From the NCBI RefSeq assembly GCF_900291475.1, contig NZ_OLMM01000001.1:15592-66140 (forward strand): a stretch of 50,549 bases of DNA. The letters are read 5' to 3'. Below are positions 1,661 through 17,225 of this stretch, piece after piece. The notes under the pieces were generated by a model that did no database searches, had not been told where the DNA came from, and saw only the letters and a program-made list of their open reading frames with translations. The number at the start of each line of letters is the position of its first letter. The first letter of the stretch is position 1. Origin of the DNA: Acidaminococcus hominis (GTDB lineage Bacteria; Bacillota; Negativicutes; Acidaminococcales; Acidaminococcaceae). A program made the position numbers and the translations under genes.

Positions 1661-2014
1661 ATGTCTGAGCTGGAAGGGGCGTTTATTCAGGTAATCTTGG
1701 AATCTTGGCGTTTTGCCAAGGGCTACTCAAAGTTGGTGGAGAAATTGGACCTGTTGGAGCGGCAGAAGTACCGGGGGCGGTATGACTGGTACCTGCGGAA
1801 GCTGCGGGAGCAGGCGGAAAGGGCGGGGTTTGTGCTGAAGAAATATGACGAGGGTACGGTCTATGACCCGGGTATGGCGGTAAAGGCGCTGAATGCGGAC
1901 GAATTTCCGGAAGGAACGTCTCTTGTGGTGGAACAGATGGTGGAGCCTATTATTTTGCGAACAGATGGGCAACTTGTTAAGCTTGGAACTATTTTGGTGA
2001 GGGGGAAGGCATAA
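1661..2014 (+). CDS. GrpE-like small protein of the Hsp70 operon
   Basis: This 117-residue protein has a basic helical first half (residues 1-65, rich in R, K, E, Y) and a C-terminal segment, GTVYDPGMAVKALNADEFPE followed by GTSLVVEQMVEPIILRTDGQ and LVKLGTILVRG, that matches the beta-wing domain of GrpE (FDP..HEAV...GTVVEVLQKGY...LRPAMV). GrpE is the nucleotide-exchange factor of Hsp70. The protein is much shorter than GrpE (about 180-200 residues) and lacks most of the long dimerising helix. Its stop overlaps the Hsp70 start by one base, so the two are translationally coupled. RBS AGGGGAAGGG sits about 6 bases before the ATG. The assignment rests on motif reading plus context. Confidence 0.7.
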   Translation: MSELEGAFIQVILESWRFAKGYSKLVEKLDLLERQKYRGRYDWYLRKLREQAERAGFVLKKYDEGTVYDPGMAVKALNADEFPEGTSLVVEQMVEPIILRTDGQLVKLGTILVRGKA

Positions 2015-4485
2015 TGGCTATTTATGTGGGAATTGATTTGGGGATGACCAACAGTGCAATTTGTACTTATGATGGGAAACATACGCAGGTGTGGAAGAGC
2101 CCGGAGCAAAATGATGTGACGCCGTCCGCCATTTATATTGACCGCCGGGGCAATACCCAATATGGGCAGCGGGCCTATAATGCGGCGCCGATGGCACCGG
2201 GGAACGCAGCTACGTTGTTCAAGCGATTCATGGGCACCAGCACCAAGATTGCTTTTCCTGCGGTGCATATCGAGAAGACACCGGAGGAATGCTCGGCGGA
2301 AATTCTGAAGGTGCTGTACGGGTATTTGTCCGGCAAGGTGGACGAGGCTGATATTCAGGGGATTGTGATTACGGTGCCGGCAGCGTTTAACCAGATGCAG
2401 AAAACGGCCACCATGAAGGCGGCGGAGTTGGCTGGCTTTAGCAAGGTTGCGCTGATGCAGGAACCGGTGGCGGCTGTCATGAACATCATGGAGCAGGAAA
2501 AATCCGATGGAACGTTCCTGGTCTACGACCTGGGCGGGGGAACGCTGGATATTGCCATTGCGGAAAGTGTGGCGGGGAAGGTAAACCTCATTGCCCACGG
2601 GGGCATTGCCATGTGCGGGGGACGGGATTTTGACCGGACACTGGTGGACAATGTGGTGAAGCCCTGGCTGCGGGAAAATTTCAAGCTGCCGGAGGAACTG
2701 CTGCAAAAACAGAACAACCGGCTGATGCGTATGGCGGCCTGGGCTGCGGAAAAGGCCAAGATGGAACTGTCCGCCAATGAAGAAGCCACTATTACTTTGT
2801 CGGAAATGGAGCTGAATGTCCGGGACCAGGAAGATGCGGAAGTCTATCTGGACATTCCCATTACCCGGAAGAGATATGATGCCTTGATCGATAAACGCAT
2901 TAGGGAAACGGTGGAGGCGGCCCGGGAAGCCATTGGCAAGGCCGGTCTGCGGCCGGAAGATATTGCCAAAATTGTCTTTATTGGGGGCCCCACCAACTAC
3001 AAGCCGCTGCGGGATAAGGTTTCCTTTGAGCTGGGCATTCCCGGCAGCACCGATGTGAACCCGATGACGGCGGTAGCGGAAGGGGCCAGCATTTTTGCGG
3101 AGTCCATTGACTGGAGCACAGCTGAGCACGCCAGAAAGGGGAACCGGGGCCAGGTGAATGTGGGTAGCGGCCTGGATTTGCAGTTTGTGTACATTGCCCG
3201 GACCTCCGATAATCGGACCAAGGTGGCGGCCAAGGTCCTGGGAGGCAATGTGCAGGGTATGCAGTTCCAGGTGGACAGCTTGGATACGGGCTGGTCCTCC
3301 GGCCGGGTGCCTCTGGAAAACGGCAAAATCGTGGAAGTGCCTCTGTCGGAAAGCGGGGACAATCATTTTAAGGTGTTCGTATTTGCTCCCAACGGGGGGC
3401 TGGTCCCCATTGAAAAAGACCAGATTACCATTACCAAGACGGCGGCTACCATTGTGGGCATTCCTGCTTCTCATTCCATTGCGGCCATTGTGCTGGACAA
3501 GGTGGGCGGGGAGCAGGTGCTGGACTTCCTGGTGAAGGCTGGGGAATCCCTGCCCAAGGAAGGGACGAAAATCTACCGGGCGGCAGAAACCCTGCGTTCC
3601 GGGGCCAATAAGTCCTTGAACTTCAACCTGGTGGAAGGGGAGATTGCCCACCCGGTAACGGACAACCGGCCCATTGGGTATTTGCAGATTACCGGGGACG
3701 ATTTTGACGATGATGTGATTCCTGCTGGGGCGGAACTGGAATTTCACTATAAGGTACTGGATTCGGGGATGCTGGTGGCCTCGGTGGCGGTGCCCAGCAT
3801 TGGAGCGTCCTTTGCGGCCAAGAATTTCTATACTACCGCAGGGAAGACGCCGGACTTTGGCAAGGCCTCGCCCAAGGTGGACGCAGATGCCAAGGAGCTG
3901 CTGCAGCGGATTGATACCTTGGAGCAGCAGGTGCAGGATCCCCTCTTGGAAGAAGCCCGGGAAAAGGCCGTGCAGGCCCGGGAACTGAACCACAGTACGG
4001 AAAGTGCGGAAGATGTGGGGGAAGCCTGGAACACCATTTATGAGGTGAAAAAGCTGCTGGCCCAGACCCGGGAACGGAATCTGACGAAAATCCGGGAAGG
4101 GGAACTGGCGGACAATGTCCGGGATTATGCCGACCAGATCCAGCGGTACGCCCGGCCCAGCGAACAGGCACGGTTTGAGGCGCTCAAGAAAAATGCCGAA
4201 AGCTGTCTGGAAAATCCCGATAATGAATTTGATTTGACCCTTCAGAAAATGAGCTCTCTGAAAGTGAATATCCTGTGGCGGCAGGATTGGTTCGTCGTAG
4301 GCATGTTTAATGAAATGGTAAAAAATCCGGGCCAGTTTACGGATCGGAGCAAATTCCAGGCCCTGCAAAAACAGGGTGAGCAGTTTAAGCAGCAGGACCG
4401 GATTGAACAGCTGCGCAATGTGGTGTTCGAGTTGTTCCGGCTGCTGCCAGCCGGGGAGATAGCGGAGCTGTTTACCGGCTGGTGA
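2014..4485 (+). CDS. divergent long Hsp70 (DnaK-like) chaperone
   Basis: At 823 residues this is about 180 longer than DnaK. The nucleotide-binding domain spans residues 1-372: phosphate-1 loop GIDLGMTNS (residues 6-14; the usual GIDLGTTNS has T where M11 stands), phosphate-2 DLGGGT (172-177, with T177 at the place of the DnaK autophosphorylation Thr), adenosine motif IVFIGGPTN (320-328) and NPMTAVAEGA, where DnaK has NPDEAVA. A beta-rich substrate-binding-like part follows to about 620, then a long charged helical region (about 625-823) that replaces the short DnaK lid and lacks an EEVD-type tail. It is second in the operon, between the GrpE-like gene and an AAA+ gene. It is unlikely to be the housekeeping DnaK, which normally sits with hrcA, grpE and dnaJ. 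Confidence 0.9.
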   Translation: MAIYVGIDLGMTNSAICTYDGKHTQVWKSPEQNDVTPSAIYIDRRGNTQYGQRAYNAAPMAPGNAATLFKRFMGTSTKIAFPAVHIEKTPEECSAEILKVLYGYLSGKVDEADIQGIVITVPAAFNQMQKTATMKAAELAGFSKVALMQEPVAAVMNIMEQEKSDGTFLVYDLGGGTLDIAIAESVAGKVNLIAHGGIAMCGGRDFDRTLVDNVVKPWLRENFKLPEELLQKQNNRLMRMAAWAAEKAKMELSANEEATITLSEMELNVRDQEDAEVYLDIPITRKRYDALIDKRIRETVEAAREAIGKAGLRPEDIAKIVFIGGPTNYKPLRDKVSFELGIPGSTDVNPMTAVAEGASIFAESIDWSTAEHARKGNRGQVNVGSGLDLQFVYIARTSDNRTKVAAKVLGGNVQGMQFQVDSLDTGWSSGRVPLENGKIVEVPLSESGDNHFKVFVFAPNGGLVPIEKDQITITKTAATIVGIPASHSIAAIVLDKVGGEQVLDFLVKAGESLPKEGTKIYRAAETLRSGANKSLNFNLVEGEIAHPVTDNRPIGYLQITGDDFDDDVIPAGAELEFHYKVLDSGMLVASVAVPSIGASFAAKNFYTTAGKTPDFGKASPKVDADAKELLQRIDTLEQQVQDPLLEEAREKAVQARELNHSTESAEDVGEAWNTIYEVKKLLAQTRERNLTKIREGELADNVRDYADQIQRYARPSEQARFEALKKNAESCLENPDNEFDLTLQKMSSLKVNILWRQDWFVVGMFNEMVKNPGQFTDRSKFQALQKQGEQFKQQDRIEQLRNVVFELFRLLPAGEIAELFTGW

Positions 4486-4506
4486 ATATTATTCGGGGGT
4501 GAGGAG

Positions 4507-5865
4507 ATGCAAAACCCATGGCTTCTCAGGGGGTATCAGGTCCTGGGTACGGCTGCGGCTGAGCTCCTGATGGGCGGGCCCCAGTGGCAGCTGTACAGGA
4601 CCGCTGCGGGGGACGTTCTGCTGCTGGCCCTGGAGGAGCTGGCCGGGCGCTGGCTGAAAAGCGGGCTGCTGCCCCAAAATCAGGGGGAAGCCGTTTCTCT
4701 GGGGCGCAGCAGGGCCTGGGCCTTTAGGGACAGCCGCATCGTTCCGGTGGAGAACTGTACGGAGGCCTGGGAACTGCCGGAAGTACTGGACCTATGCCGG
4801 GCCCTAAAGCGCAGCCGGCAGCTGGAAAAGGACGCTGGTTTTCAGGACGCCCTGTACCTGGAGCAGGCCGGAGTTCTGCTGCCCCTGTGGACGGGGCGCG
4901 TAGCGGTGCCCGATGCACAGGTGCTGGGGCGGGTTCTCACTGGGGGCGTGGACGTGGCGGTAACGGACTTTGCACGGCTGTCCGCCCTGTGCCCGGACCT
5001 GACCCAGGGGGCTTGGCAGGAACTGGTGCAGGCTGCGGGCCTTGCGGTGCCGCTGCCAGCCCAGCAGGCGGTGGAAGTCTCTCCGCAGGGGGCAGAAGGC
5101 TCCCCACAGGAAAGTAGAAAGTACCCGGAGGGGGACTTTGCGCTGCCTGGGCGGCCGCAGCTGGAGAAATTTTTTAACGAGCATATTATTGATCTTGTGA
5201 AGCATCCTGAAGCCTATAGAAGAATGGGCATCACGTTTCCTACGGCCGTACTTTTGTATGGCCCGCCGGGCTGTGGTAAGACCTATGCGGTGGACCGGCT
5301 GGTGGAATATCTGGGGTGGCCCCGCTATTCCATTGATTCCGCCAGTGTGGGAAGTCCCTACATCCACGAGACCAGCAAGCGGATTGGGGAGGTTTTTGCA
5401 CTGGCTAAGGCCCACGCTCCTGCGGTGGTGGTCATTGACGAAATGGAAGCCTTTGTTTCCAGCCGGGACCGGGCGGGCAGCAATCTCCACCAGGTGGAAG
5501 AGGTGGACGAGTTCCTGCGGCAGCTGCCGGAAGCGGCGGCTCACCAGGTGCTGGTTCTGGCTATGACCAACCGGCTGGACCTGATTGATGCAGCGGTCCG
5601 GAGAACCGGGCGGTTTGACCATTTGGTGGAGGTGGGAATGCCCAGTGAGGCAGAGGTGGCGTCTCTGGTGCAGGCGCTCCTCAAAAAACGGCCGGTAAGC
5701 CCGGAGCTGGACACCCGGGAACTGGTACGCACGATGGCAGGGCGGCCCCTGTCGGATACGGACTATGTGATCCGGGAGGCGGCCCGCCTGGCTGCCAAAA
5801 ACAAGAAGACGGAAATTGATCAGGCCTGCCTGAACGAAGCCCTGTTGGGGCGCCGGCAGGAATAA
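4507..5865 (+). CDS. AAA+ ATPase of the Hsp70 operon
   Basis: This 452-residue protein has an N-terminal domain (1-205) I do not recognise and one classical AAA module (about 215-445). Walker A is GPPGCGKT (252-259), Walker B VVVIDE (307-312), sensor-1 MTN (353-355), followed by RRTGRFD (365-371), the arginine-finger region typical of FtsH/Cdc48/proteasomal AAA proteins. The second-region helical lid ends in a sensor-2-like stretch. No protease motif (HEXXH) and no membrane segment are present, so it should be a soluble hexameric remodelling ATPase. It starts 21 bases after the Hsp70 stop behind GGGGGTGAGG. Context suggests that it works with the Hsp70, as ClpB does with DnaK, but ClpB has two AAA modules and different sequence. 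Confidence 0.85.
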   Translation: MQNPWLLRGYQVLGTAAAELLMGGPQWQLYRTAAGDVLLLALEELAGRWLKSGLLPQNQGEAVSLGRSRAWAFRDSRIVPVENCTEAWELPEVLDLCRALKRSRQLEKDAGFQDALYLEQAGVLLPLWTGRVAVPDAQVLGRVLTGGVDVAVTDFARLSALCPDLTQGAWQELVQAAGLAVPLPAQQAVEVSPQGAEGSPQESRKYPEGDFALPGRPQLEKFFNEHIIDLVKHPEAYRRMGITFPTAVLLYGPPGCGKTYAVDRLVEYLGWPRYSIDSASVGSPYIHETSKRIGEVFALAKAHAPAVVVIDEMEAFVSSRDRAGSNLHQVEEVDEFLRQLPEAAAHQVLVLAMTNRLDLIDAAVRRTGRFDHLVEVGMPSEAEVASLVQALLKKRPVSPELDTRELVRTMAGRPLSDTDYVIREAARLAAKNKKTEIDQACLNEALLGRRQE

Positions 5866-5888
5866 GCGATAAGAAAGCAGGGAAGAAA

Positions 5889-7061
5889 ATGAGCTTATGG
5901 GAAAGTCCTTTTTACCTGCTCCAGGTAGCAACAGAGACCCGGAAGACGGCCATTCTCAGTGCAGCGGAGGAACGGGAGCTGCTCCAGGGGGATGGCACGG
6001 CCCGGGAACTGGCCAACCGACTGACCAATCCTGGCCTGCGGCTGGAAGAGGAAGTGGCCTGGCTGCCCGGGGTCAGTGCCCAGGAAACGGCGTCCATTTT
6101 GCAGCAGGTAAAAGCAGCCCCGCGGAAGGAGCCCCAAAGTGCAGCCCTCAGCAGAAGCAGTGACCTGTACTGCGCCAAGGCCAATGTGCTGGCGCAGCGG
6201 GTGGCAGAGGAAGGGCCGGGGGCAGAAAACCTGACGGATATGGGGCTTTTGATGCAGTATACGGAGCGTATTGTCCCGGAAAAATTAATGGAACAGATCA
6301 ACCAGAACCGGCGGGCGGCGGGGCTTCCGGCCGTAGAGTCGGTGGCCAAAGTGAAGCAGGCCCTGGAAAAGCAGCAGCGGGAATGGGTGAGGCTGTGCAA
6401 ACTGGCTTTGGACCGGTATCAGTCCGAACATATCGGACTGGGGCTGGGGATGCTGCTGGAGCTTTTGACCAAAAAACGGTCCCAGCGGGCACCCCAACTG
6501 GCCTACAGTCTGGTAGATGCCTACGAGGTGGAGGCCCAGGGCTTTTTTGCCGCGGCTACGCCGGCGCTGCGGGAGCTGGTGCGCTACACCAGCAAACGGG
6601 CAGGGGAAGACGTTTCCCAGGTGGAGCTGGCCTATTTGCTGGGGCATTTGCTGCGGCTGACCTATACCTGGGAAAAGCTTGCCCAGCCGTTGGAACTGGC
6701 CAAGGAAAGCCGGCTGCAGGATGACCGGCAAAGCCGGCAGGTGGCGGTGGACCTTTGCACAATCTCTGCCAAGCTGCTGATGGCGGCTGCCCGGGAACCG
6801 GGGACCAAACTGGTTTTCTGGGCGGATGCGCTGATTTTTTTGGCAGGGCTCAAGGTGATCGCCTTGGACGGGGATTTTCTCCAGAACCGGGCCCGGAATG
6901 AACTGGCGGCTTTACAGAAGCTGACGCTCTCCGGGGTCAGTTTGCCTAGCCGGAAGGCAGCGGTGGCGCAAACCCAAGGGGTAATTTTTCAATTTATGCA
7001 GCAGAAACAGCTGCAGGGGAATATGACCCAGGAAATCCAGGAAATTGTGAACACGCTCTAA
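5889..7061 (+). CDS. helical protein with J-like N-terminus, Hsp70 operon
   Basis: This 390-residue, almost wholly helical protein has no signal peptide. Its first 75 residues (SPFYLLQVATETRK, AAEERELLQG, ANRLTNPGLRLEEEVAWLPG) have the feel of a J-domain: a start like NPYELLGV, then a helix carrying TNPGLRLEEEV. The catalytic HPD tripeptide is absent. The remainder (80-390) is a run of amphipathic helices with leucine-rich stretches, like a TPR or other helical scaffold. The gene starts 23 bases after the AAA+ stop. I infer a co-chaperone or adaptor linking Hsp70 and AAA+, but no family can be named from sequence alone. Confidence 0.6.
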   Translation: MSLWESPFYLLQVATETRKTAILSAAEERELLQGDGTARELANRLTNPGLRLEEEVAWLPGVSAQETASILQQVKAAPRKEPQSAALSRSSDLYCAKANVLAQRVAEEGPGAENLTDMGLLMQYTERIVPEKLMEQINQNRRAAGLPAVESVAKVKQALEKQQREWVRLCKLALDRYQSEHIGLGLGMLLELLTKKRSQRAPQLAYSLVDAYEVEAQGFFAAATPALRELVRYTSKRAGEDVSQVELAYLLGHLLRLTYTWEKLAQPLELAKESRLQDDRQSRQVAVDLCTISAKLLMAAAREPGTKLVFWADALIFLAGLKVIALDGDFLQNRARNELAALQKLTLSGVSLPSRKAAVAQTQGVIFQFMQQKQLQGNMTQEIQEIVNTL

Positions 7062-7087
7062 AGGGCCGGCAAAGGAGAGAACGCAGT

Positions 7088-7882
7088 ATGGCAACGGGAT
7101 TTAAAGGCTTGAATGATCTGGGAAAAGTACTGGCGGCCCAGGAGAAGAGCATTATGCGTAACGCTCAAAAGCGAGCCTTGGAGGATCGGCAGACTGCCGG
7201 GAATACGCAGCAAACCCAACTGGCGGCGAGGGGGACGGCACCGGTGGCTTCCAACGCCGGAGCGGGTGCCCCAAGCAGGGGACTGGGGACCAAGCCTGCG
7301 GTGAGGGTCCAAAAGCGGGTGGATTACGATGATGATGAGCCCTTGTTGTTTCGGGTGGTGTGGAAATTTATTGCTTTCTTAGCTGGTGCACTTGTCCTAC
7401 TATGTTGTTTGGGCCTGTTTTTTGGAGGTATAGCACATCATGCAACTGAGTCTCAGCAGCAGAACGTGCAGCAGCAGAAATCGGCGCCCAAAGCTGCACC
7501 AGCTCCTAAAAAAGATGAGTATGCAGCTTTCCACAAGATGGTTGGCAATATGCATTTTTATGATGCGCAGGCCGATAATTTGGCAGCAAAGGTAGATCAT
7601 TATCAGGGTGACCTAGGAAGAGCAGAAAATCTTTATGATGAAGCGGTCAGAATCGCAGACTCAGTAAAGGCGTTACAGAAAGAACTGGATGGTATCAAAT
7701 GCCCTTCGAAAAATGATAAGATTCGCTTGAACAATCTTTTGGTTCTTATCAATAATCGGGTTGTAGGAAGAGCCAATGCCATTGCAGCAGCCAGCAAGGG
7801 ACAAAGCCCTGTTGGGGAATTTGCCAAAGGGAGACAGGCAAATGCGGATTTTCAGGCAGAATTGAAAAAATCCAAGTTTTGA
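7088..7882 (+). CDS. single-pass membrane protein A, Hsp70 operon
   Basis: Of 264 residues, 1-90 are a charged, Gln-rich cytosolic tail (GFKGLNDLGKVLAAQEKSI, GNTQQTQLAARGT). A transmembrane helix follows at about 97-122 (FIAFLAGALVLLCCLGLFFGG), then a Gln/Ala/Pro linker and a helical domain outside the membrane (about 150-264). It shares its N-terminal tail and the C-terminal motif LLVLINNRVVGRANAIAAAS with the next gene. Orientation is inferred from the acidic/basic tail preceding the helix. RBS AAGGAGAG lies 8 bases upstream. The function is unknown; as an operon member it may anchor the chaperone machine to the inner membrane or be its client. Confidence 0.75.
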   Translation: MATGFKGLNDLGKVLAAQEKSIMRNAQKRALEDRQTAGNTQQTQLAARGTAPVASNAGAGAPSRGLGTKPAVRVQKRVDYDDDEPLLFRVVWKFIAFLAGALVLLCCLGLFFGGIAHHATESQQQNVQQQKSAPKAAPAPKKDEYAAFHKMVGNMHFYDAQADNLAAKVDHYQGDLGRAENLYDEAVRIADSVKALQKELDGIKCPSKNDKIRLNNLLVLINNRVVGRANAIAAASKGQSPVGEFAKGRQANADFQAELKKSKF

Positions 7883-8028
7883 AGCCGAAAGAAAATGTGC
7901 AGGAGCAAACTTATAGAAGCTGGTGGGGCTTCAGTTGTGCATAAGCAGCAGCCGACTGAGTATAGCAAACAGTAAAGCAAGGGGGTTTCAGACAAGTTCC
8001 GAAGGCCCGCAAAAGGGGGGAGAGCAGC

Positions 8029-8964
8029 ATGGCAACGGGATTTAAAGGGTTGAACGACCTGGGAAAAGTACTGGCGGCGCAGGAAAAGAGCATTGTGCAG
8101 AGTGCCCAAAAGCGGGCCTCGGAGGAGCGGCAGGCTGACGGGAATACGCAGCAAACCCAGCTGGAGGCGAGGGGAACGGGATCTGCGGCAGTAAGCGCTG
8201 GAGCGGCTACCAGCAGGGGACTGGGGAACAAGCCTGGGGTGAGGGTCCAAAAGCGGGTGGCTTACGAGGAAGATGAGCCTTGGGCGTTTCGGCCCCTGAG
8301 GAACTTTACGATTTTTGTGGCTGCGTGTTTTGTACTGATGTATGGGGTTATCAGCTTTTATGGACCTGAGCAGGATTATGGCTCTGAACCCCAGCAGAAG
8401 ACCGTGCAGCAGCAGAAACCGGCGTCAAAACCGGCTCCGGCACCAGAACCGAAACCGGAACCAGAGCCCACGCCAGAGCCGGATCCAGCGCCGCCCCCTA
8501 ACCCGTTTCCGCCGCTGGAGCAAACCCTGCCCCAGAACGGGGTGGAGCTCCCACCGGCCGAGCCTGAACCGTCGTCGCCCCAAACGTATTTTGAGTTTGA
8601 CGGGTATGTGGATACGCTGGAGTCGTTGAACCGGGAAGCAGAGGACCTGGCGTTTGAGATGGATTTCAACCAACCCTGGAAGTATGCCGATATAGAGCGC
8701 TGGTATGCCCAGGCAGAGGATATTGCGGACCGGGCGCTGCGCTGCCGGGATGATCTGGATTTTGTGGATTGCCCTTCCGAGGAGGCCCGGGCGGAATTGC
8801 AGAACCTGTTTGTGCTTGTGAACAATAAGGTGGTGAACCGGGCCAATGCCCTGGGCGCCTACAGCCAGCAGCAGTCGCCGAATCTGGACCTGTGGGACGC
8901 GGAAGATGCGGATAACCAGTACAGGAATCAGTATGATGATTTTAGTTTGGAGTATGAGTATTGA
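8029..8964 (+). CDS. single-pass membrane protein B, paralogue of A
   Basis: Of 311 residues, the first 85 nearly repeat protein A (MATGFKGLNDLGKVLAAQEK, then GNTQQTQLEARGT) and a transmembrane helix lies at about 92-112. Then comes a striking Pro/Glu linker (PEPKPEPEPTPEPDP) and an acidic external helical domain with motif NLFVLVNNKVVNRANALGAYS. The external domains of A and B are much less alike than their tails, and at DNA level the first 230 bases are almost the same, which points to a recent duplication or gene conversion limited to the tail. A 146-base spacer separates the two genes. RBS GGGGGGAGAG. No function is known to me. Confidence 0.75.
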   Translation: MATGFKGLNDLGKVLAAQEKSIVQSAQKRASEERQADGNTQQTQLEARGTGSAAVSAGAATSRGLGNKPGVRVQKRVAYEEDEPWAFRPLRNFTIFVAACFVLMYGVISFYGPEQDYGSEPQQKTVQQQKPASKPAPAPEPKPEPEPTPEPDPAPPPNPFPPLEQTLPQNGVELPPAEPEPSSPQTYFEFDGYVDTLESLNREAEDLAFEMDFNQPWKYADIERWYAQAEDIADRALRCRDDLDFVDCPSEEARAELQNLFVLVNNKVVNRANALGAYSQQQSPNLDLWDAEDADNQYRNQYDDFSLEYEY

Positions 8965-9043
8965 AGGGGTAGATAACAAGCCATTGGTGCGGTCAGCGAA
9001 CTGTTGGTGTGGACGGGCCCATCCCCCTTCCTAGCGTCAGACA

Positions 9044-9174
9044 CCTTCCCGCACTTCCGTGCCCCCTCTGCGCCTCTAGTAGCTTTGAAATAGGCGCATC
9101 TCCCCCATTTCAGCCGTTTCCACGGCGAAATGGAGGAGACGAGGGGTGCGGGAAGGCAAGCGGCCGGCGGCCGC
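9044..9174 (+). repeat. branched 130-bp repeat element, copy 2 (right of Hsp70 operon)
   Basis: It has the same stems as the copy at 1066-1200: CCTTCCCGCAC / GTGCGGGAAGG outside, the TGCGCCT / AGGCGCA and CCATTTC...GAAATGG hairpins inside, then GCGGCC / GGCCGC. Differences are few and mostly in loops or at the ends. It is in the same orientation as copy 1. Confidence 0.7.
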
Positions 9175-9404: not shown

Positions 9405-10304
9405 TCAGGGGCGGGGTGGTTTATTGGGCTTTGGGGCGTTCTTTTTGATTTGTTCGTGGTAGAAGTAGTTGACCAAAAGGGGTGGGGCGTCAAAGGGGCG
9501 GGTGAGGCTGTCGTCATTTCTTACGTAGTCCAGGCCGGCTTTTGCGGCGTAGGCCCTGCATTCCTGGTCCAGGGCTTCCCAATAGCTTTTGACGCCTTTT
9601 TGGTAGATTTCCTGGTATAGGGGCAGGAGGTGGGGATATTGCTTCTCGATATAGCGGAGAATGGTGGTTTTGTAGCTTCCCCGGAGGTTCAGGTTTTCCA
9701 GCCAAATCAGCTGACAGTGGTCTCGGGCGCGTTCTATAATGGCTTTTACATCGGTGATGCCGGGGAAAATAGGGGAGATAAAGCAGGTGGTGCGGATGCC
9801 GGCCCGGTGGAAGGCTTCCATAGCGGCCAGACGGCGTTCTATGCTGGGGGCCCGGTCCATGGCCTTCTGGAAGGTTTCGTCCAGGGTGTTGATGGACCAG
9901 GAGACCCGAGCGTCCGGAAAGGTTTTAATCAGGTCCAGGTCCCGGAGAATCAGGTCGCTTTTGGTGGCAATGGAAAGGCGGGCGCCGCTGCCCTGGAGCT
10001 GGGTGAGCAGGGCCCGGGTACGGCCGTATTTTGCTTCTTCGGGCAGGTAGGGGTCGGTTACGGAGCCCAGGAAGATTTCTTTGCCGGCGTATTTTTCGGG
10101 GTGCTTGAGCTCAGACCAGTATTTCACGTCCAGGAAGGTGCCCCAGGGCTCGGGGTGGCCGGTGAAACGTTTCATGAAGGAGGCGTAGCAATACAGGCAG
10201 CCGTGGGTGCAGCCTACGTAGGGGTTGGCGGCGTATTCGCAGACGGGCAGGTTGGATTTGGAGAGGATGCTTTTGACGGGGATTTCCCGGAGAAGTAGGG
10301 TCAT
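9405..10304 (-). CDS. radical SAM protein, SPL-like family
   Basis: This 299-residue protein has the radical SAM cluster motif GCTHGCLYCYA (C32, C36, C39), which binds a 4Fe-4S cluster and S-adenosylmethionine. NPYVGC..GCLYCYA...F and LGSVTDPYLPEE are typical of the spore-photoproduct-lyase-like / Rv2578c-like radical SAM group. Members outside spore formers have no settled function, and nothing here argues for sporulation. Its ATG is followed upstream (own strand) by GGAGCCTCC-type sequence and it runs towards the Hsp70 operon, sharing a terminator at 9264-9303. The C-terminus is basic and proline-rich (KKNAPKPNKPPRP). Confidence 0.85.
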   Translation of the reverse strand: MTLLLREIPVKSILSKSNLPVCEYAANPYVGCTHGCLYCYASFMKRFTGHPEPWGTFLDVKYWSELKHPEKYAGKEIFLGSVTDPYLPEEAKYGRTRALLTQLQGSGARLSIATKSDLILRDLDLIKTFPDARVSWSINTLDETFQKAMDRAPSIERRLAAMEAFHRAGIRTTCFISPIFPGITDVKAIIERARDHCQLIWLENLNLRGSYKTTILRYIEKQYPHLLPLYQEIYQKGVKSYWEALDQECRAYAAKAGLDYVRNDDSLTRPFDAPPLLVNYFYHEQIKKNAPKPNKPPRP

Positions 10305-11041: not shown

Positions 11042-11995
11042 ATGGGACTTTTACGGAAAACGGCTCTTTTGCTGGGGCTGACGGTATGTTTGGCAGGGAC
11101 GGGCATGGCCTCTGCGGCGCAGGCGGAAAAGGCACCTTCTGGTCTCCGGTATTTTATGCAAAAGCCGGGGGTAAAGGGCAGCAGTACGCCCTACGGCAAT
11201 AATCTGAAGCAGGGCCATTATATCCAGGCCGGGGACGCCAAGCTGTACTACGAGGTGTACGGGACGCCCGAAACCGGGTCCCCAGTTTTCGTTTTTCATG
11301 GGGGCGGGGTGGGTACGCCCTACGAAATGGGCGGCCTGATTGATAAGCTGCGCCCCAACCATCAGGTGATTGTGGTTTCTACCCGGGGTCACGGCCGCTC
11401 GGAAATAGGCCACACGCCGCTTACCTATGAGCAGAAGGCCCAGGATATGCTGACGGTGATGCGCACCGTCACTAGGCGGCCGGCCACCCTGCTGGGGTTC
11501 AGCGATGGGGCCTATACGGCCTATGAAGTGGCGGTGCTGGCGCCCCAGGCGGTGGACCGGCTTGTGGCCATCGGGGCGGGGACGCTGAAAGCGGGGTACT
11601 TCAAACCGGGACTTACGGTGGAAGACCTGCGGAAAACCGACCCGGCTTTTGTGGAGCAGCAGCTGGGGCTGATGCCGGAGCCGGAGCGGTACCAGGAATT
11701 TCTCACCAACTATATGCAGTTCTGGAGCAAGCTGCACGTAGGGAAGGAGACCTTTGGGTCCATCCAGTGCCCGGTGCTGCTGATCGTAGGGGACGAGGAC
11801 GACCATGCGCCGGTGGCGACGGTACTGGAAGCCCACCAGCTGCTTCCCAACTCCCGGCTGTGCGTAGTGCCCAAGGCCTGGCATACGGCCTTTTTGGACA
11901 ACTTCCAGGTAACCTGGGACGCCATCCACCCCTTTGTGGAGGCGGAGCGCAGCAGTCTGGTGTCCAGCAAAAAGCTGCCTCAAAATAACCAGTAG
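11042..11995 (+). CDS. exported alpha/beta hydrolase
   Basis: This 317-residue protein begins with a signal peptide (MGLLRKTALLLGLTVCLAGT followed by GMASAAQA, cleavage near residue 28). The alpha/beta-hydrolase fold shows HGGG (oxyanion region), nucleophile elbow GFSDGA, acid in VGDEDDH and catalytic His in KAWHTAF. It resembles proline-iminopeptidase/esterase-like secreted hydrolases; the substrate is unknown. An in-frame upstream extension exists, but the signal peptide fixes the start at 11042. The ribosome-binding site (GAAGG) is weak. In a diderm cell it would act in the periplasm. Confidence 0.8.
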   Translation: MGLLRKTALLLGLTVCLAGTGMASAAQAEKAPSGLRYFMQKPGVKGSSTPYGNNLKQGHYIQAGDAKLYYEVYGTPETGSPVFVFHGGGVGTPYEMGGLIDKLRPNHQVIVVSTRGHGRSEIGHTPLTYEQKAQDMLTVMRTVTRRPATLLGFSDGAYTAYEVAVLAPQAVDRLVAIGAGTLKAGYFKPGLTVEDLRKTDPAFVEQQLGLMPEPERYQEFLTNYMQFWSKLHVGKETFGSIQCPVLLIVGDEDDHAPVATVLEAHQLLPNSRLCVVPKAWHTAFLDNFQVTWDAIHPFVEAERSSLVSSKKLPQNNQ

Positions 11996-12023
11996 AAGCC
12001 ATAGGCCGAGGAACAGAAAGCGC

Positions 12024-12052
12024 TTGTCCCCCGGCCTTTTCTATGGTATGAT
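12024..12052 (+). promoter_or_regulatory. promoter of the fluoride operon
   Basis: TTGTCC (12024-12029), exactly 17 bases, TATGAT (12047-12052). The start point would fall about 5 bases before the riboswitch. Confidence 0.75.
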
Positions 12053-12061
12053 ACATCACAT

Positions 12062-12120
12062 CGGGAATGAAGTTCTCCCACGGCAATTGCCGAAACCGCG
12101 TAAAGCTGACGACTTCTGCA
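12062..12120 (+). ncRNA. fluoride riboswitch (crcB motif)
   Basis: The sequence follows the fluoride-riboswitch consensus: GGGAATGAAGTTCTCCC (first stem and loop), a CGGCAATTGCCG variable hairpin, AAACCGC, then GCTGACGACTTCTGC. The known motif has GG.GATG...TCTCC...AACCGCC...GGCTGATGACTTCTAC. It binds fluoride and switches on export genes. Here it precedes two fluC genes and its 3' part forms one arm of a terminator (12105-12150), so fluoride binding should allow read-through. Confidence 0.9.
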
Positions 12121-12150
12121 CAGGCAGAGGGGACGTCGGCTTATTTTTTT
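12105..12150 (+). terminator. riboswitch-controlled terminator
   Basis: GCTGACG (12105-12111) pairs with CGTCGGC (12134-12140), with an inner CTTCTGC / GCAGAGG stem, followed by TTATTTTTTT. The left arm is the 3' strand of the fluoride aptamer, so the two structures exclude each other. Confidence 0.85.
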
Positions 12151-12187
12151 CTAAGGCGGGCAAGAAACGAAACTGAAGGAGGCTTTC

Positions 12188-12583
12188 ATGCGCAAATATC
12201 TATTTGTCGGGTGCGGCGGGTTTCTGGGGGCCCTGCTGCGGTACTGGGTGAAGGGGCTTTCCCTTGGCCAGCTGCCGGAGGTGATTCCCCTGCACACCCT
12301 GGGCATCAACGTACTGGGGGCTTTTCTCATTGCCCTGATTTCCACGGTGGCCTACGAGGTCTGGGAGTTTGACGGGGATCTGCGGCTGGGGCTGACTACG
12401 GGCCTCTTGGGGGCGTTTACCACCTTTTCCACCTTGTGCAAGGAAACGGTGAACCTGTGGCGGGCCGGGCAGGAAAATCTGGCGCTGTCCTATGTAGGGC
12501 TGAGTATTTCCCTGGGGCTTCTGGCGGCTTTTGCCGGCGTGGTGCTGGCCCGGGGGCTGGGGCTCCTGCGGCAGCGGGACTAA
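12188..12583 (+). CDS. fluC1: fluoride channel FluC subunit 1
   Basis: This 131-residue, four-helix membrane protein of the CrcB/FluC family shows the family signatures GGFLGALLRYW at the N-terminus, GINVLGAFLIAL (conserved Asn in helix 2) and GLLGAFTTFSTLCKE (the FTTFST break in helix 3 that lines the pore). FluC dimers pass fluoride out of the cell. Together with the next gene it would form a heterodimeric channel, as in other Firmicutes. It starts behind GAAGGAGGCTTTC and lies directly downstream of a fluoride riboswitch. Confidence 0.95.
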   Translation: MRKYLFVGCGGFLGALLRYWVKGLSLGQLPEVIPLHTLGINVLGAFLIALISTVAYEVWEFDGDLRLGLTTGLLGAFTTFSTLCKETVNLWRAGQENLALSYVGLSISLGLLAAFAGVVLARGLGLLRQRD

Positions 12584-12593
12584 GGAGGAAGCG

Positions 12594-12944
12594 ATGGACT
12601 ATTTATGGGTAGGAATAGGCGGCGTGCTGGGGGGACTGTGCCGGTTCCAGGCTGGGCGCTCCATTTCTCAGCGGGCGGACACGGATTTTCCCCTGGGGAC
12701 GTTTTGCATCAATCTGGTGGGGGCACTGCTCCTGGGGCTGCTGTCCAGTTTGGAGGCGCCAAAAACGGCGTACCTGCTCTTGGGTGAGGGCTTCTGCGGG
12801 GCGTTTACCACTTTTTCCACGTTTATGTACGAGGGCTTTGGACTGCTGCAAAACCGGGATTCCCGGAATGCGGTGCTGTACCTGGGGGGTACGGTGGTGC
12901 TGGGGCTGGTGGGCTACTGTGCCGGCTATGCCCTGGGGAGCTAG
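12594..12944 (+). CDS. fluC2: fluoride channel FluC subunit 2
   Basis: This 116-residue CrcB/FluC protein has GGVLGGLCRFQAG, INLVGALLLG and GFCGAFTTFSTFMYE, so both pore signatures are kept. It begins 11 bases after subunit 1 behind AAGGAGGAAGCG. The two subunits are clearly different in sequence, as expected for obligate heterodimers with the subunits in opposite orientation. Charged residues are few; helices are about 4-22, 33-52, 62-88 and 95-113 by eye. Confidence 0.95.
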   Translation: MDYLWVGIGGVLGGLCRFQAGRSISQRADTDFPLGTFCINLVGALLLGLLSSLEAPKTAYLLLGEGFCGAFTTFSTFMYEGFGLLQNRDSRNAVLYLGGTVVLGLVGYCAGYALGS

Positions 12945-12958
12945 AAGGAGGAGTAACT

Positions 12959-13303
12959 ATGCAAACAGGCGAAGCTTGTGAAATGCTGAAAATCTACGTA
13001 GGGGACGATGCCCGCTGGGAAGGCCACAGCCTGCATACGGCCCTTTTGCGGAAGCTAAAGGAGCTGGGGGTGGCCGGGGTGACGGTTACCCGGGGCATTG
13101 CCGGCTATGGGGAGGGGAAGGCCATCCATACGGAACGGCTGCTGACCCTCAGCGACGACCTGCCCATTGTCCTGGAAGCGGTGGACCGCAAAGAGAAGAT
13201 CCAGGAAGTGATTCCTGTGCTTCAGGAAATGGTCACGGAGGGGCTGATGCTGGTGACGGAGGTCACTGTGCTCCACTATGGGAAGAAGCGGGACACTTTG
13301 TAA
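12959..13303 (+). CDS. DUF190 protein of the fluoride operon
   Basis: This 114-residue soluble protein of the DUF190 family shows KIYVGDDARWEGHSLHTALL, GVTVTRGIAGYG, LPIVLEAVDRKEKI and a beta-rich end. The fold is PII/ACT-like. DUF190 genes repeatedly sit beside crcB/fluC, which suggests a role in fluoride response, but no biochemical function is established to my knowledge. It starts 14 bases after fluC2 behind AGAAGGAGGAGTAAC and is covered by the same riboswitch. Confidence 0.85.
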   Translation: MQTGEACEMLKIYVGDDARWEGHSLHTALLRKLKELGVAGVTVTRGIAGYGEGKAIHTERLLTLSDDLPIVLEAVDRKEKIQEVIPVLQEMVTEGLMLVTEVTVLHYGKKRDTL

Positions 13304-13322
13304 AGCAGAAAATGTGTAAGTG

Positions 13323-13370
13323 CCGGAACTTCGGAAAAAATTTGCCGAAATTCCGGTACTTTTGTATAAT
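13323..13370 (+). promoter_or_regulatory. rrf2 promoter with overlapping dyad
   Basis: The -35 box TTGCCG (13342-13347) and -10 box TATAAT (13365-13370) are 17 bases apart. A dyad CCGGAACTTCGG / CCGAAATTCCGG (13323-13334 with 13345-13356) covers the -35. It may be an operator for the Rrf2 protein encoded next, or a terminator for the fluoride operon (TTTTG follows after TAC), or both. Confidence 0.65.
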
Positions 13371-13942: not shown

Positions 13943-14069
13943 GTGGGGGTGCAATTTGTATACGTTCGTATAATTGTCAAGACGTGGTCTTGCTGTTATG
14001 CTAAAAATGGTATTTTATGCGTCTGGCAATGTGGCCAGTGATTTGCAGAAAAGAAAGTGGGGATGCAGG

Positions 14070-15798
14070 ATGGGAAAACGGGATAAGGTTAAGGCTTTTG
14101 CGGTATTAGCGGCAGTATTGGGTACGGGGGCTGTGGCTATGCCTGTGTGTGGGGCGGCAGATATTATCGGGAAAAGGGTACTTGTTGAGGGTACGCTTCC
14201 CAGAGCGGCCTATGGGGGACAAGCGGTGGAGGCTGGGGCCAGTGCGCTGGGTAACACGCTGACCCTTTCTGAAACGGCGGAGGTGCTGGGGATTGCCTAC
14301 GGGGGCTTTTCTCTCTCGGGCTCTGCCCAGCAAAATACCCTGGAAATTGCTCCCGGCAGTGTAGCGGCTGTAGAAGTCTACGGGGGGCACGTAAGCCGCG
14401 GCACGGGAACGGCCGCAGGGAATGCGGTGCGTATGAACGGCGGGCTGGTGAAGGGAGATTTATACGGTGGGTATACGGCTGCCGGAACGGCCCAGGGCAA
14501 TCAGGTATTTCTCAGCGGCAGTGCCGTGGTAGGGGAGGAGTACGAAGAGGAAGGCAATGTGTACGGGGGCGTCAGTTACAGCGGAGCGGCGCTGGATAAT
14601 CAGGTGACGCTGGAGGCTGGCAGCTATGTGTACAATTCTGTTTCCGGGGGTCAGGTCAATGGGGAGGAAAGCAGCGGCGCAGTTACGGGTAACCAGGTCC
14701 TGATGACCGGGGGAACGGTGGCTACCGACCTCCAAGGGGGCCTGTCCTTTGGCAGCGGCAGGGTTTCCCAGAACCGGGCAGTGCTTAGCGGCGGCACAGT
14801 AGAAGGCGGTGTGTACGGCGGTTATGCTGGGGCAGGCCAGGCGGAGGAAAACGTGGTGGAGCTCCAGCAAGCAGTGGCCGTGGGCAACGGTGTGTACGGG
14901 GCCTGGGTCAATGCCGGGGACGGTTGGGCCCGGAACAACCAGGTGCAGATGACCGGCGGCACGGTGGAAGGCAGTGCGTATGGCGCACTACTTGCGGGAA
15001 CGGGGACGGCCCAGGGCAATCTGGTAAACCTTGGGGGCGGAATTGTAAAAAGCAGTGCCTACGGTGCTTACAGCCTGCAAGGGGCTGTAGTGGGCAATAC
15101 CCTGACGCTGGGGGGTACGGCGGTGCTGGGAAACGCAGCTGGGCTCGAGCCCTTCGGGGTGGTGAATCCCGATGCCGGCGGCTATGGCGGCTATACCCTG
15201 AGCGGCGCAGCTGAGGGTAATGTGCTGCAGCTCCAGGACAATGCCCTGCTTTGGGGACATGGGGCAGGGGGCTTTGTTGGAGAGGACTCCTCGGAGGCAG
15301 TTACCGACAACAAGGTGCTGGTCACCGGCAGTGCAGTGGTAGGGGCCGCAGGCGGCAAAACCCTGGCCGGCGGCTGGTCCTGTGGGTCCGGCAAGGTTAC
15401 GGGCAACCAGGTGGTGGTCGTGGTGGTCCAGGGCGGCACGGTGGCCGCAGCTATTTACGGGGGTCTGGCAGCCAGCGGGGACGCGCTGGACAACACGGTA
15501 GTAATCTCCGGCGGCACGCTGCAGGGGGACCTTTATGGAGGCTATTCTGTGTCGGGGTCGGCACTGAACAATCAGGTGAATATTTTCGGCGGAACTTTTG
15601 GTGCCGGCAGTGCGTTGTACGGCGGCGCCTTAGGCTCTGCCAATCAAGAAGGCACCAGCAGCGGCAATACCCTGAACTTCTTCACCAAGGGTGTCGCGGT
15701 AAAGCAGGTGGCGGGTTTTCAAAAGCTGAATTTCTACGTGCCGGCTGGCACCAAGGCCGGCGAAACGCTGCTGACGGTGACGGAGGCCGTGGATTTAA
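14070..15798 (+). pseudogene. autotransporter adhesin, 5' part (split by ISL3 element)
   Basis: The frame starts at ATG 14070 with signal peptide MGKRDKVKAFAVLAAVLGTG (cleavage near AGA/AADI, residue 30). The passenger is a chain of about 25-30-residue repeats of the pattern N.V.L.GG.V.G..YGG...SG.A..N, expected to fold as a beta-helix. At residue 576 the frame meets an insertion sequence and continues into it only to an accidental stop at 15908. The 3' part, with the beta-barrel, resumes at 17355. Joining across one copy of the 8-bp duplication restores a single frame (V-D-L-T-G-A-A), 962 codons in all. A microsatellite-like GTG/GTC run near 15411-15428 inserts extra valines in one repeat. 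A perfect hairpin CAAGAC-GTG-GTCTTG lies upstream (13978-13992). Confidence 0.9.
15791..15798 (+). repeat. target-site duplication, left copy
   Basis: GGATTTAA directly before the left end of the ISL3 element; repeated at 17347-17354. Confidence 0.9.
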
Positions 15799-15819
15799 GG
15801 CTCTTCACGTTTTATTGTG

Positions 15820-15848
15820 GGATGGCAGATTTCTGCCATCCTTCTTTT
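15820..15848 (+). terminator. hairpin terminator at the IS left end
   Basis: GGATGGCAGA pairs perfectly with TCTGCCATCC and TTCTTTT follows. It faces transcripts arriving from the autotransporter promoter, so it would stop read-through and protect the transposase from antisense transcription. Confidence 0.7.
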
Positions 15849-15878
15849 ATGTCTAGCAACATCCCACTGTCGCAATCT

Positions 15879-17225
15879 CTAGACAGTGCCGTTTCGTATA
15901 GATGGTAATGCTGAATATCGAATCAGAGTGAAAAAATATTCATCATTTTTGTATCCATACCCTATTCGTTTTGCAACCTTAATCTTGTTATTGAAGCCTT
16001 CAAGCTTTCCTGTGGTAATCGGATGGGCTGAGTGAGCAATCAAACCCTCTTTGCGTTTTCGCTTTAAGCGGGCAAACTTTTGCAGCTGCGGTATGTTGCT
16101 CTCCTCGGCTCCTTTAAACCATTTTTCCCATTCTACGGCAGCTAAATCGGGGTTTCTAAGCTCGAATAGATCACTTAGTTCCTCTTTCATTGTATGGCAA
16201 ACTGTCAAATTTTCATGTTTTTTAAGGATTTCCTTGAGATTTTCTGCCTTTTTATCGCTTAGTGTTTCTTCCTTGCAAAGCAGCGTCCAGCGAGCTTGTT
16301 TTACTTCCTTGTAAAGCCGATTCTCCTCTTTAATTGAATCCTCTGCTTTTGTTGCCTGCTCTTCAGCAATATTCTCTGTAATCCCAAGCTTTAGGTTATC
16401 GGCTTTCTCTTTGTGCTGTCTTGCTTCCTCCAGCCTTACGGCTCCCAGCACATCTCGTCCATACTGGGCTTGCATATGGTAGCGGTCGTATACTATTGCC
16501 GCATGAGGCAGATACTTTTCTACCAGGGTGTTGAACGATGCGTTCATGTCCATTGCGACAGCTTCTACTTCAGACAAATACTCCAGGTCTGTCTCTTCAA
16601 AAAACTTTGTAAAGGCAGCTATAGAGCGTCCCGCACCAACCCAGAGGATGTCTCCCATATCAAGGTCCATAACACAGGTTGCGTAAGTATGGCCTTTGTG
16701 CATTGCAAACTCATCAACGGCAAGATGCTTAGGACGGTAGCCACTTTTGCGAAGTTCCTCGCTTCGCGTTTTGAGAGCCTCGTCCATAATTTCCTTATGG
16801 ATTTTAGAAACTGTTCCCCAATGGATACCGGTCAAATCGCTGACTGCTTTAATCGTCATTTGATGCATAAGCAAAATCTTGATCCATAAAGCGGCACGAG
16901 AAGTGACTCTGGTTCCAGGATACTTAAAGGTTATGTTTTCATTGAAGGTATGCCCGCATTTTTGGCACCGGTAGCGGTGGAATCTCACACGAAGAATCCG
17001 TGGCTTTCCGGGTATCCAGGGCATGTCTTTAAGTGTAGTTACAGGGTTGTCATGGATATGGACCTTACCGCCGCAGCAAGGGCATACAACGTCGGCTGTA
17101 GGCCGGGTACTATTTACATCTATGATCTCTTCAAAAAGAGAAGCAATACTCGTAGGAATATTAAAATTTTCCTGTATGTTTTTGCATAAATTTGCTATAC
17201 TTGAGGTTGAGAGCACGTGGATCAT
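15879..17225 (-). CDS. tnpA: ISL3-family transposase
   Basis: This is a 448-residue protein if started at the ATG MIHVLSTSSIANL; a TTG 57 bases further upstream is in frame and has a similar, poorly spaced ribosome-binding site, so the start is uncertain. An N-terminal zinc finger (CPCCGG...CQKCGH) is followed by a helix-turn-helix and a DDE catalytic region (HLAVDEFAMHKGH, AVAMDMNASF, then ITTGKLEGFNNKIK near the C-terminus), all as in ISL3 transposases. No frameshift or stop interrupts it. Its A+T-rich codon use differs from the host genes and fits recent arrival. Confidence 0.95.
   Translation of the reverse strand: MIHVLSTSSIANLCKNIQENFNIPTSIASLFEEIIDVNSTRPTADVVCPCCGGKVHIHDNPVTTLKDMPWIPGKPRILRVRFHRYRCQKCGHTFNENITFKYPGTRVTSRAALWIKILLMHQMTIKAVSDLTGIHWGTVSKIHKEIMDEALKTRSEELRKSGYRPKHLAVDEFAMHKGHTYATCVMDLDMGDILWVGAGRSIAAFTKFFEETDLEYLSEVEAVAMDMNASFNTLVEKYLPHAAIVYDRYHMQAQYGRDVLGAVRLEEARQHKEKADNLKLGITENIAEEQATKAEDSIKEENRLYKEVKQARWTLLCKEETLSDKKAENLKEILKKHENLTVCHTMKEELSDLFELRNPDLAAVEWEKWFKGAEESNIPQLQKFARLKRKRKEGLIAHSAHPITTGKLEGFNNKIKVAKRIGYGYKNDEYFFTLIRYSALPSIRNGTV

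Follow-up and report, generated by a model that had tools for sequence, protein, structure and literature searches.

A stretch of 50,549 nucleotides from contig NZ_OLMM01000001.1 of Acidaminococcus hominis, hereafter the window, carries at positions 1661–8964 an operon of six open reading frames (ORFs), g1–g6, which constitute a genuine gene set of chaperone type, one that is conserved, mobile and apparently without a name. The set combines a short GrpE-like protein, an Hsp70, a classical AAA+ ATPase, a helical protein with a J-like start and two membrane-protein paralogues, and what is new here is a candidate N-terminal tag that is shared across nine groups of operon proteins dissimilar by BLAST. 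The make-up of the gene set and its tag is well supported. As to its purpose, we infer with middling confidence that g1–g6 is a horizontally acquired, dedicated Hsp70/AAA+ remodelling machine addressed to the inner membrane, probably for phage defence or envelope surveillance. The ORF coordinates of the window agree with a first-pass annotation, which had placed six same-strand genes in this interval; spacers are short or overlapping through g5, and 146 bases separate g5 from g6. Only two proteins were named by Pfam above cut-off: g2 (HSP70, and also MreB_Mbl, which shares its fold family) and g3 (AAA). The genes and tags are as follows.

1661–2014, plus strand: g1, short GrpE-like protein, 117 amino acids
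2014–4485, plus strand: g2, Hsp70, 823 amino acids
4507–5865, plus strand: g3, single-module classical AAA+ protein, 452 amino acids
5889–7061, plus strand: g4, helical protein with a J-like start and no HPD motif, 390 amino acids
7088–7882, plus strand: g5, tagged (tag at residues 4–15), single hydrophobic span starting near residue 85, 264 amino acids
7097–7132, plus strand: tag of g5
8029–8964, plus strand: g6, paralogue of g5 and likewise tagged, single hydrophobic span starting near residue 90, 311 amino acids
8038–8073, plus strand: tag of g6

Conservation was assessed on 93 loci that were selected by the Hsp70 alone, so that neighbouring genes played no part in the selection. The Hsp70 was recovered in 92 of them, and profiles run on the ORFs of these 92 found g1 in 88, the AAA+ gene in 89 and g4 in 83, most of the missing core genes belonging to loci at contig ends. 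Homologues thus adjoin one another elsewhere, as the first-pass proposal of a common machine presupposed. The position of g4 varies, being on the other strand in locus L068 and upstream in three loci that lack the AAA+ gene. Since other phyla show the same genes in the same order, the operon represents more than chance neighbours, and a chance neighbourhood of g1–g4 was rejected because the set is kept across phyla.

Residues 5–362 of g2 match Pfam HSP70 (PF00012) with an E-value of 2.5e-55, and the C-terminal 458 residues were modelled with AlphaFold at a mean predicted local distance difference test score of 83.4, yielding two successive beta domains followed by a helical bundle. The second beta domain matches the peptide-binding domain of DnaK by Foldseek (E 2.2e-8) and superposes on DnaK 2v7y by VIA with a Z-score of 13.1 and a root-mean-square deviation of 2.5 over 112 aligned residues; on the C-termini of these Hsp70s, Pfam gave no more than scattered weak matches. 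The resulting domain layout is listed below.

2014–3108, plus strand: nucleotide-binding domain of g2, catalytic residues kept and J-docking residues replaced
3145–3438, plus strand: extra beta domain of g2 (about residues 378–475), located where the canonical linker is expected; from the predicted model
3451–3846, plus strand: DnaK-type peptide-binding beta domain of g2 (about residues 480–611), from Foldseek and VIA
3856–4476, plus strand: C-terminal helical bundle of g2 (about residues 615–821), from the predicted model

Across 86 aligned Hsp70 sequences, that of the window included, residues K70, E171, D194, T199 and D201 are retained without exception. Judged from this alignment and the predicted model, g2 belongs to the Hsp70 superfamily: its catalytic residues are retained, and its peptide-binding domain has a fold like that of DnaK. 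The surface that receives J-proteins looks different. In DnaK, the residues R167 and Q378 as well as the linker are contacted by the HPD motif of DnaJ, according to PMC8215388. In the present set, R167 is replaced by A in 82 of 86 sequences, N170 by Q in all 86 and Q378 by F or Y in all 86; the linker VLLL is likewise missing from all 86, and the first beta domain sits at the position of the short linker of DnaK. As far as the alignment goes, the canonical J-docking site and the linker are gone from g2. Equivalent replacements of the J interface are found in the readable loci without an AAA+ gene, so that decay of this interface is independent of that gene. The first-pass annotation had called g2 a non-housekeeping Hsp70 of 823 residues, and this is confirmed: g2 scores 205.1 bits against the NCBIfam DnaK equivalog, whose cut-off is 822.55, and a full-length DnaK-like match is present elsewhere in the genome. 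On both grounds, a second DnaK was rejected as an identity for g2.

A profile of g1 was compared with housekeeping GrpE using hhalign and matched at 91.9% over 105 columns, with reversed and swapped controls at or below 6.3%. Pfam GrpE is weakly matched by 24 of 58 members of the g1 family (best E 0.0043), and the g1 of the window has no match; the genome's own GrpE frame measures 203 amino acids vs 117 for g1. At the profile level, g1 resembles GrpE, in keeping with its earlier description as exchange-factor-like. The start of g4 was compared with a J-domain profile and matched at 36% with 93 starts and at 79% with the subset from loci without the AAA+ gene, with controls at or below 0.5%; a first, narrower profile had given only 1.2%, and the likeness emerged only with the wider alignment and its subset. 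None of the 93 starts extracted from 98 g4 ORFs contains the HPD motif, at least one of the starts (L219) having been cut at the wrong place. The degenerate J-like start that had been proposed for g4 is probable on the wider alignment, and an ordinary J-protein was rejected because HPD occurs in none of the starts. An HPD-less, J-like g4 accompanies an Hsp70 without an HPD docking site, and, by comparison of the aligned sequences, both faces of this contact have degenerated. Searches of PDB sequences with the g1 and g4 profiles returned no match below E 0.3, and on g4 Pfam gave no more than scattered weak matches. The whole g4 model had no match among PDB folds at E 0.001 or better, and a second fold search with it was filled by helical repeats, with no J-domain among the matches listed. 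Three consecutive g4-like genes were observed at 7160–11766 of L217, a locus of the window's class without an AAA+ gene.

The AAA+ protein g3, which the first-pass annotation had called single-module, has one Pfam AAA module at residues 248–377 (E 5.1e-28), preceded by an N-terminal part of about residues 1–215 with no Pfam match. Walker A, Walker B, sensor 1 and the arginine fingers are conserved in the family, and the aromatic position of the pore loop is Y in 77 of 82 sequences and F in four. By alignment, both ATPases (g2 and g3) keep the catalytic residues that were checked. The best NCBIfam matches of g3 are the PAN, FtsH and CDC48 models, all below cut-off, and Pfam AAA_5 scores 18.4 bits against a cut-off of 22. 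In a distant Haliscomenobacter relative (L013), an AAA+ protein at 11514–13328 has a long N-terminal part that is kinase-like by eye, and a TerB gene follows it.

The two membrane proteins had been described as paralogues with a shared cytosolic tail. They are indeed 48% identical, with one hydrophobic span each; they sit in direct-repeat DNA, and g5 matches only g5 and g6 within the genome. The shared tail proves to be a tag, G-F-x-G-L-x-x-L, with which g5 and g6 begin and which is common to the operon proteins of relatives across phyla; its cytosolic side is itself predicted. The pattern occurs in 93 of 9,202 non-core ORFs, compared with 13 of 9,562 reversed and five of 9,562 shuffled ones. 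It was altered after the data had been seen: a strict form, present in 69 of 92 loci and in none of three without the AAA+ gene, missed the window's own tag, and the wider form was then applied equally to loci with the AAA+ gene, to loci without it and to the minus strand. With this form, the tag is found in 72 of 90 loci with an AAA+ gene within 6 kb vs none of 12 without (Fisher 6e-8, kinship uncorrected) and, among loci with at least 1 kb of room, in 67 of 77 vs none of 11 (Fisher 1e-8, again uncorrected for kinship). The minus-strand control gave three of 90 loci, but in L006, one of the three, the tag found there is genuine. Nine of the loci without the AAA+ gene belong to the window's class, where L216, the one other locus with the AAA+ gene examined there, is tagged.

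Once the tag is removed, the 92 tagged proteins fall by single linkage into nine groups without mutual BLAST similarity, some of the singletons being short or clipped at contig ends. Their build varies, with a hydrophobic span near residue 80, 205 or 226, or none predicted. An outer domain, recognised by the seed pattern RYC...DYNxRC, occurs in 72 ORFs of 70 loci; beside an AAA+ gene, 69 of 70 such ORFs are tagged, and without it neither of two is. In one of these two, from Aminobacter, the outer domain is fused directly to g4, as if the fusion stood in for the tag. PG_binding_1 is present in 25 of 64 tagged proteins, which argues that their C-terminal side lies outside. At 14526–15278 of L016, and similarly in L018–L021, L027 and L033, there is another type of tagged protein, whose body is conserved and whose hydrophobic span comes late; it often adjoins the first type.

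From these components, a course of action can be proposed. Through a private interface, g4 would replace an ordinary J-protein, so that the housekeeping DnaJ could not drive g2, and g1 would reset the Hsp70. The tag would lie in the cytosol and be bound by the AAA+ protein, through its N-terminal part, or by a complex that requires this protein, and binding would either dock the machine at the membrane or feed the tagged protein into the AAA+ pore. Most likely, the outer part would sense an envelope event, for instance phage entry, whereupon the machine would remodel a membrane protein or an incoming one. In a broader version, which we offer tentatively, the operon would belong to an unnamed immune or surveillance system of many phyla, in which joint decay of the J interface has uncoupled a private Hsp70 from ordinary DnaJ and an AAA+ unfoldase reads a portable N-terminal tag on envelope-spanning sensors.

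The defence component of this reading derives from the genomic surroundings. PADLOC was run at an E-value threshold of 1e-15 on 18 loci, where 112 flanking proteins gave 193 models and an equal number taken from control stretches elsewhere in those genomes gave seven, the models being redundant (several per protein) and the loci having been picked for long contigs. The flank models include type I restriction, Hachiman HamAB, SngC and ZacC; zorA lies near the Polaromonas operon, Tn7-like genes stand beside the operon in Shewanella and Aeromonas, BREX lies near that of the distant Haliscomenobacter relative, and one Escherichia coli carrier, HeN100, has a RADAR gene and a dptF remnant nearby. 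These defence-rich contexts in relatives, the loss of J docking and the extra beta domain of the Hsp70 were all unforeseen by the first-pass annotation. Besides the redundancy and choice of loci just given, several observations weigh against the proposed defence machine. Around the window's own operon, Pfam matched eight of ten proteins and none with a defence family, PADLOC not having been run there, and the operons of the window's class without the AAA+ gene seem, from ORF starts, to lie among housekeeping genes; in two of these, L224 and L225, the Hsp70 frame is incomplete, which may reflect decay of the operon in these loci. In the first phosphate loop, position T11 is T in 85 of 86 Hsp70 sequences and M in the window alone. 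Regarding the tag, ten of the 77 loci with both the AAA+ gene and room have no same-strand tag (among tagless loci with the AAA+ gene, L006 has its tag on the opposite strand and L092 has a variant), and the loci without the AAA+ gene amount to about four lineages, for which that gene was sought within 6 kb and not elsewhere in the genomes. The largest BLAST group holds 77 of the 92 tagged proteins, and g5 and g6 lack the outer domain that is common elsewhere, their tag and span being combined with a different outer part.

A rival reading is a mobile proteostasis or stress-tolerance island, in which the machine would shield inner-membrane proteins damaged by heat or envelope stress, or pull them out of the membrane, and the defence neighbours would only reflect shared mobile islands. 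Such an element would have a loose parallel in the transmissible locus of stress tolerance, which carries genes for ClpG and a small heat-shock protein. The recognised core parts are all of chaperone type and the tagged membrane proteins often bear peptidoglycan-binding parts, both consistent with such a role, as are the lack of a defence family among the window's tested neighbours and the apparent housekeeping surroundings of the operons without the AAA+ gene. However, the enrichment of defence models in the flanks relative to the same-genome control stretches argues against it, as do the absence from the window of any CIRCE (controlling inverted repeat of chaperone expression) operator with up to three mismatches allowed and the finding that none of the 25 flanking Pfam families listed, out of 88, is a heat-shock family. 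We regard this explanation as somewhat unlikely.

Alternatively, the machine might be a dedicated assembly factor without general clients, folding, inserting or assembling its own tagged membrane proteins, which would then be the real device. The encoding of tagged proteins beside the core, the restriction of g5-like proteins to this operon in the window's genome, the co-occurrence of tag and AAA+ gene and the Aminobacter fusion of outer domain and g4 would all fit, but the persistence of the Hsp70, g1 and g4 in 12 loci without a tag or adjacent AAA+ gene does not, and nine BLAST-dissimilar tagged groups would be odd for a single-product assembly line; we regard the explanation as improbable. 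More improbable still is that the tag is a mere conserved stretch inherited with one membrane-protein family rather than a recognition element. The grouping of 77 of 92 tagged proteins by single linkage speaks for such inheritance. Against it stand the eight further BLAST-dissimilar groups that are tagged (some of them single, short or contig-clipped), the range of span positions among tagged proteins and the occurrence of the same outer domain without a tag in both loci that lack the AAA+ gene.

The reading of g1–g6 as a dedicated remodelling machine was also set against known systems. No named system of this make-up was found among the matches listed in the open-licence PubMed Central literature, which agrees with the first-pass annotation. 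One of the closest known systems is DnaK–DnaJ–GrpE with ClpB, with which the operon shares a catalytic Hsp70 of DnaK-type fold, a GrpE-like and a J-like protein and a pore-loop AAA+ protein. In contrast, the operon has a J interface lost on both sides and an extra beta domain in the Hsp70, adds tagged membrane proteins, and is accessory and mobile; moreover, unlike the Hsp70/Hsp100 bichaperone, it employs a single-module classical AAA protein instead of an Hsp100. An identity of g3 as ClpB/Hsp100 was rejected, given one AAA module in 452 amino acids vs two modules and a middle domain. The GAP1-N2 GTPase conflict systems comprise HSP70, GrpE and a partner that is typically DnaJ- or TPR-fused, according to PMC7159879. 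They are alike in clustering these three components and in being predicted conflict systems; they are built around GTPases, whereas Pfam identified no GTPase family in g1–g6. CoCoNuT, another predicted defence system, likewise includes an Hsp70-like protein, CnuD, which is either fused to McrBC-type components or encoded next to them and whose ATP hydrolysis is predicted to be very inefficient at best (PMC11090510). In comparison, g2 keeps its catalytic residues, and g1–g6 have no McrBC family above cut-off. CoCoNuT/McrBC was rejected because no McrB or McrC family was found among g1–g6 above the Pfam cut-off or by PADLOC. Within g3, the IetA models of PADLOC match nothing but the AAA module (E 5.4e-27); IetAS was rejected, as neither IetS nor any other PADLOC match was found among the six proteins. 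The main texts of a Tn7-cargo survey (PMC8649781) and of the DefensePredictor paper (PMC13092281) do not contain the chaperone terms sought.

If the broader version holds, a zip-code peptide would allow a single chaperone machine to dock on a variety of exchangeable sensors or effectors in the membrane. If the proposed machine is real, it would be a natural case of an Hsp70 system that has acquired its own J partner, and would make insulation from the cell's J-proteins directly testable. The tag itself, some 12 residues long and carried by membrane proteins that otherwise differ, offers a handle, being predicted to bind one machine. The defence-rich flanks of relatives suggest that chaperone machines may form a scarcely named class of bacterial immunity.

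The distribution of the operon is that of an accessory element, with plasmids and Tn7-like cargo among its carriers. A plasmid search with g2 found at least 80% of its length covered in 14 records, the identity being 50–53% for those of Polaromonas, Shewanella, Aeromonas and Vibrio but lower for the rest; plasmid searches for further relatives without the AAA+ gene returned only lineages already seen. Scanning genome contigs with the Hsp70 C-terminus yielded 127 relatives, of which 80 were kept, and viral contigs yielded five, while no record of a phage collection had 80% of the Hsp70 covered. There is one copy per genome in all 22 genomes searched. The operon is present in only its own genome out of 59 in the window's family, in 11 of 300 (its own included) in the window's class, and, when a Serratia sequence served as query in a DNA search, in one of 5426 E. 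coli. The Hsp70 tree, a quick one with 84 rows, spans 12 phylum-level groups; rows from bins of Acidobacteriota and Verrucomicrobiota lie only about 0.06 changes per column apart, bins being able to contain foreign contigs. The row closest to the window is L017 (56% identical), and long-branch warnings name the window, so that its exact place is unsure.

The operon is bracketed in the window by a dispersed repeat of the genome, and its copies are as follows.

1064–1170, no strand assigned: 107-nucleotide direct repeat flanking the operon, left copy
9042–9148, no strand assigned: 107-nucleotide direct repeat flanking the operon, right copy, 95% identical to the left one

This repeat has 19 matches in the genome, both operon copies counted and many of them partial, and was for that reason rejected as a private element boundary of the operon; it may mark a site of past recombination. 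A radical SAM gene (9408–10304, minus strand) adjoins the operon and is absent from the eight congeners searched. An empty-site test through this gene failed because of that absence, given which more than the operon alone may have been acquired. Promoter and terminator scans yielded about as much as shuffled sequences. Further downstream, a fluoride riboswitch (Rfam RF01734) at 12054–12125 precedes two small ORFs (12188–12583 and 12531–12944) for two-span membrane proteins, which we take to be CrcB-like. Finally, positions 13974–15908 hold a repetitive, Gly- and Asn-rich ORF of 644 amino acids that is autotransporter-like by eye.

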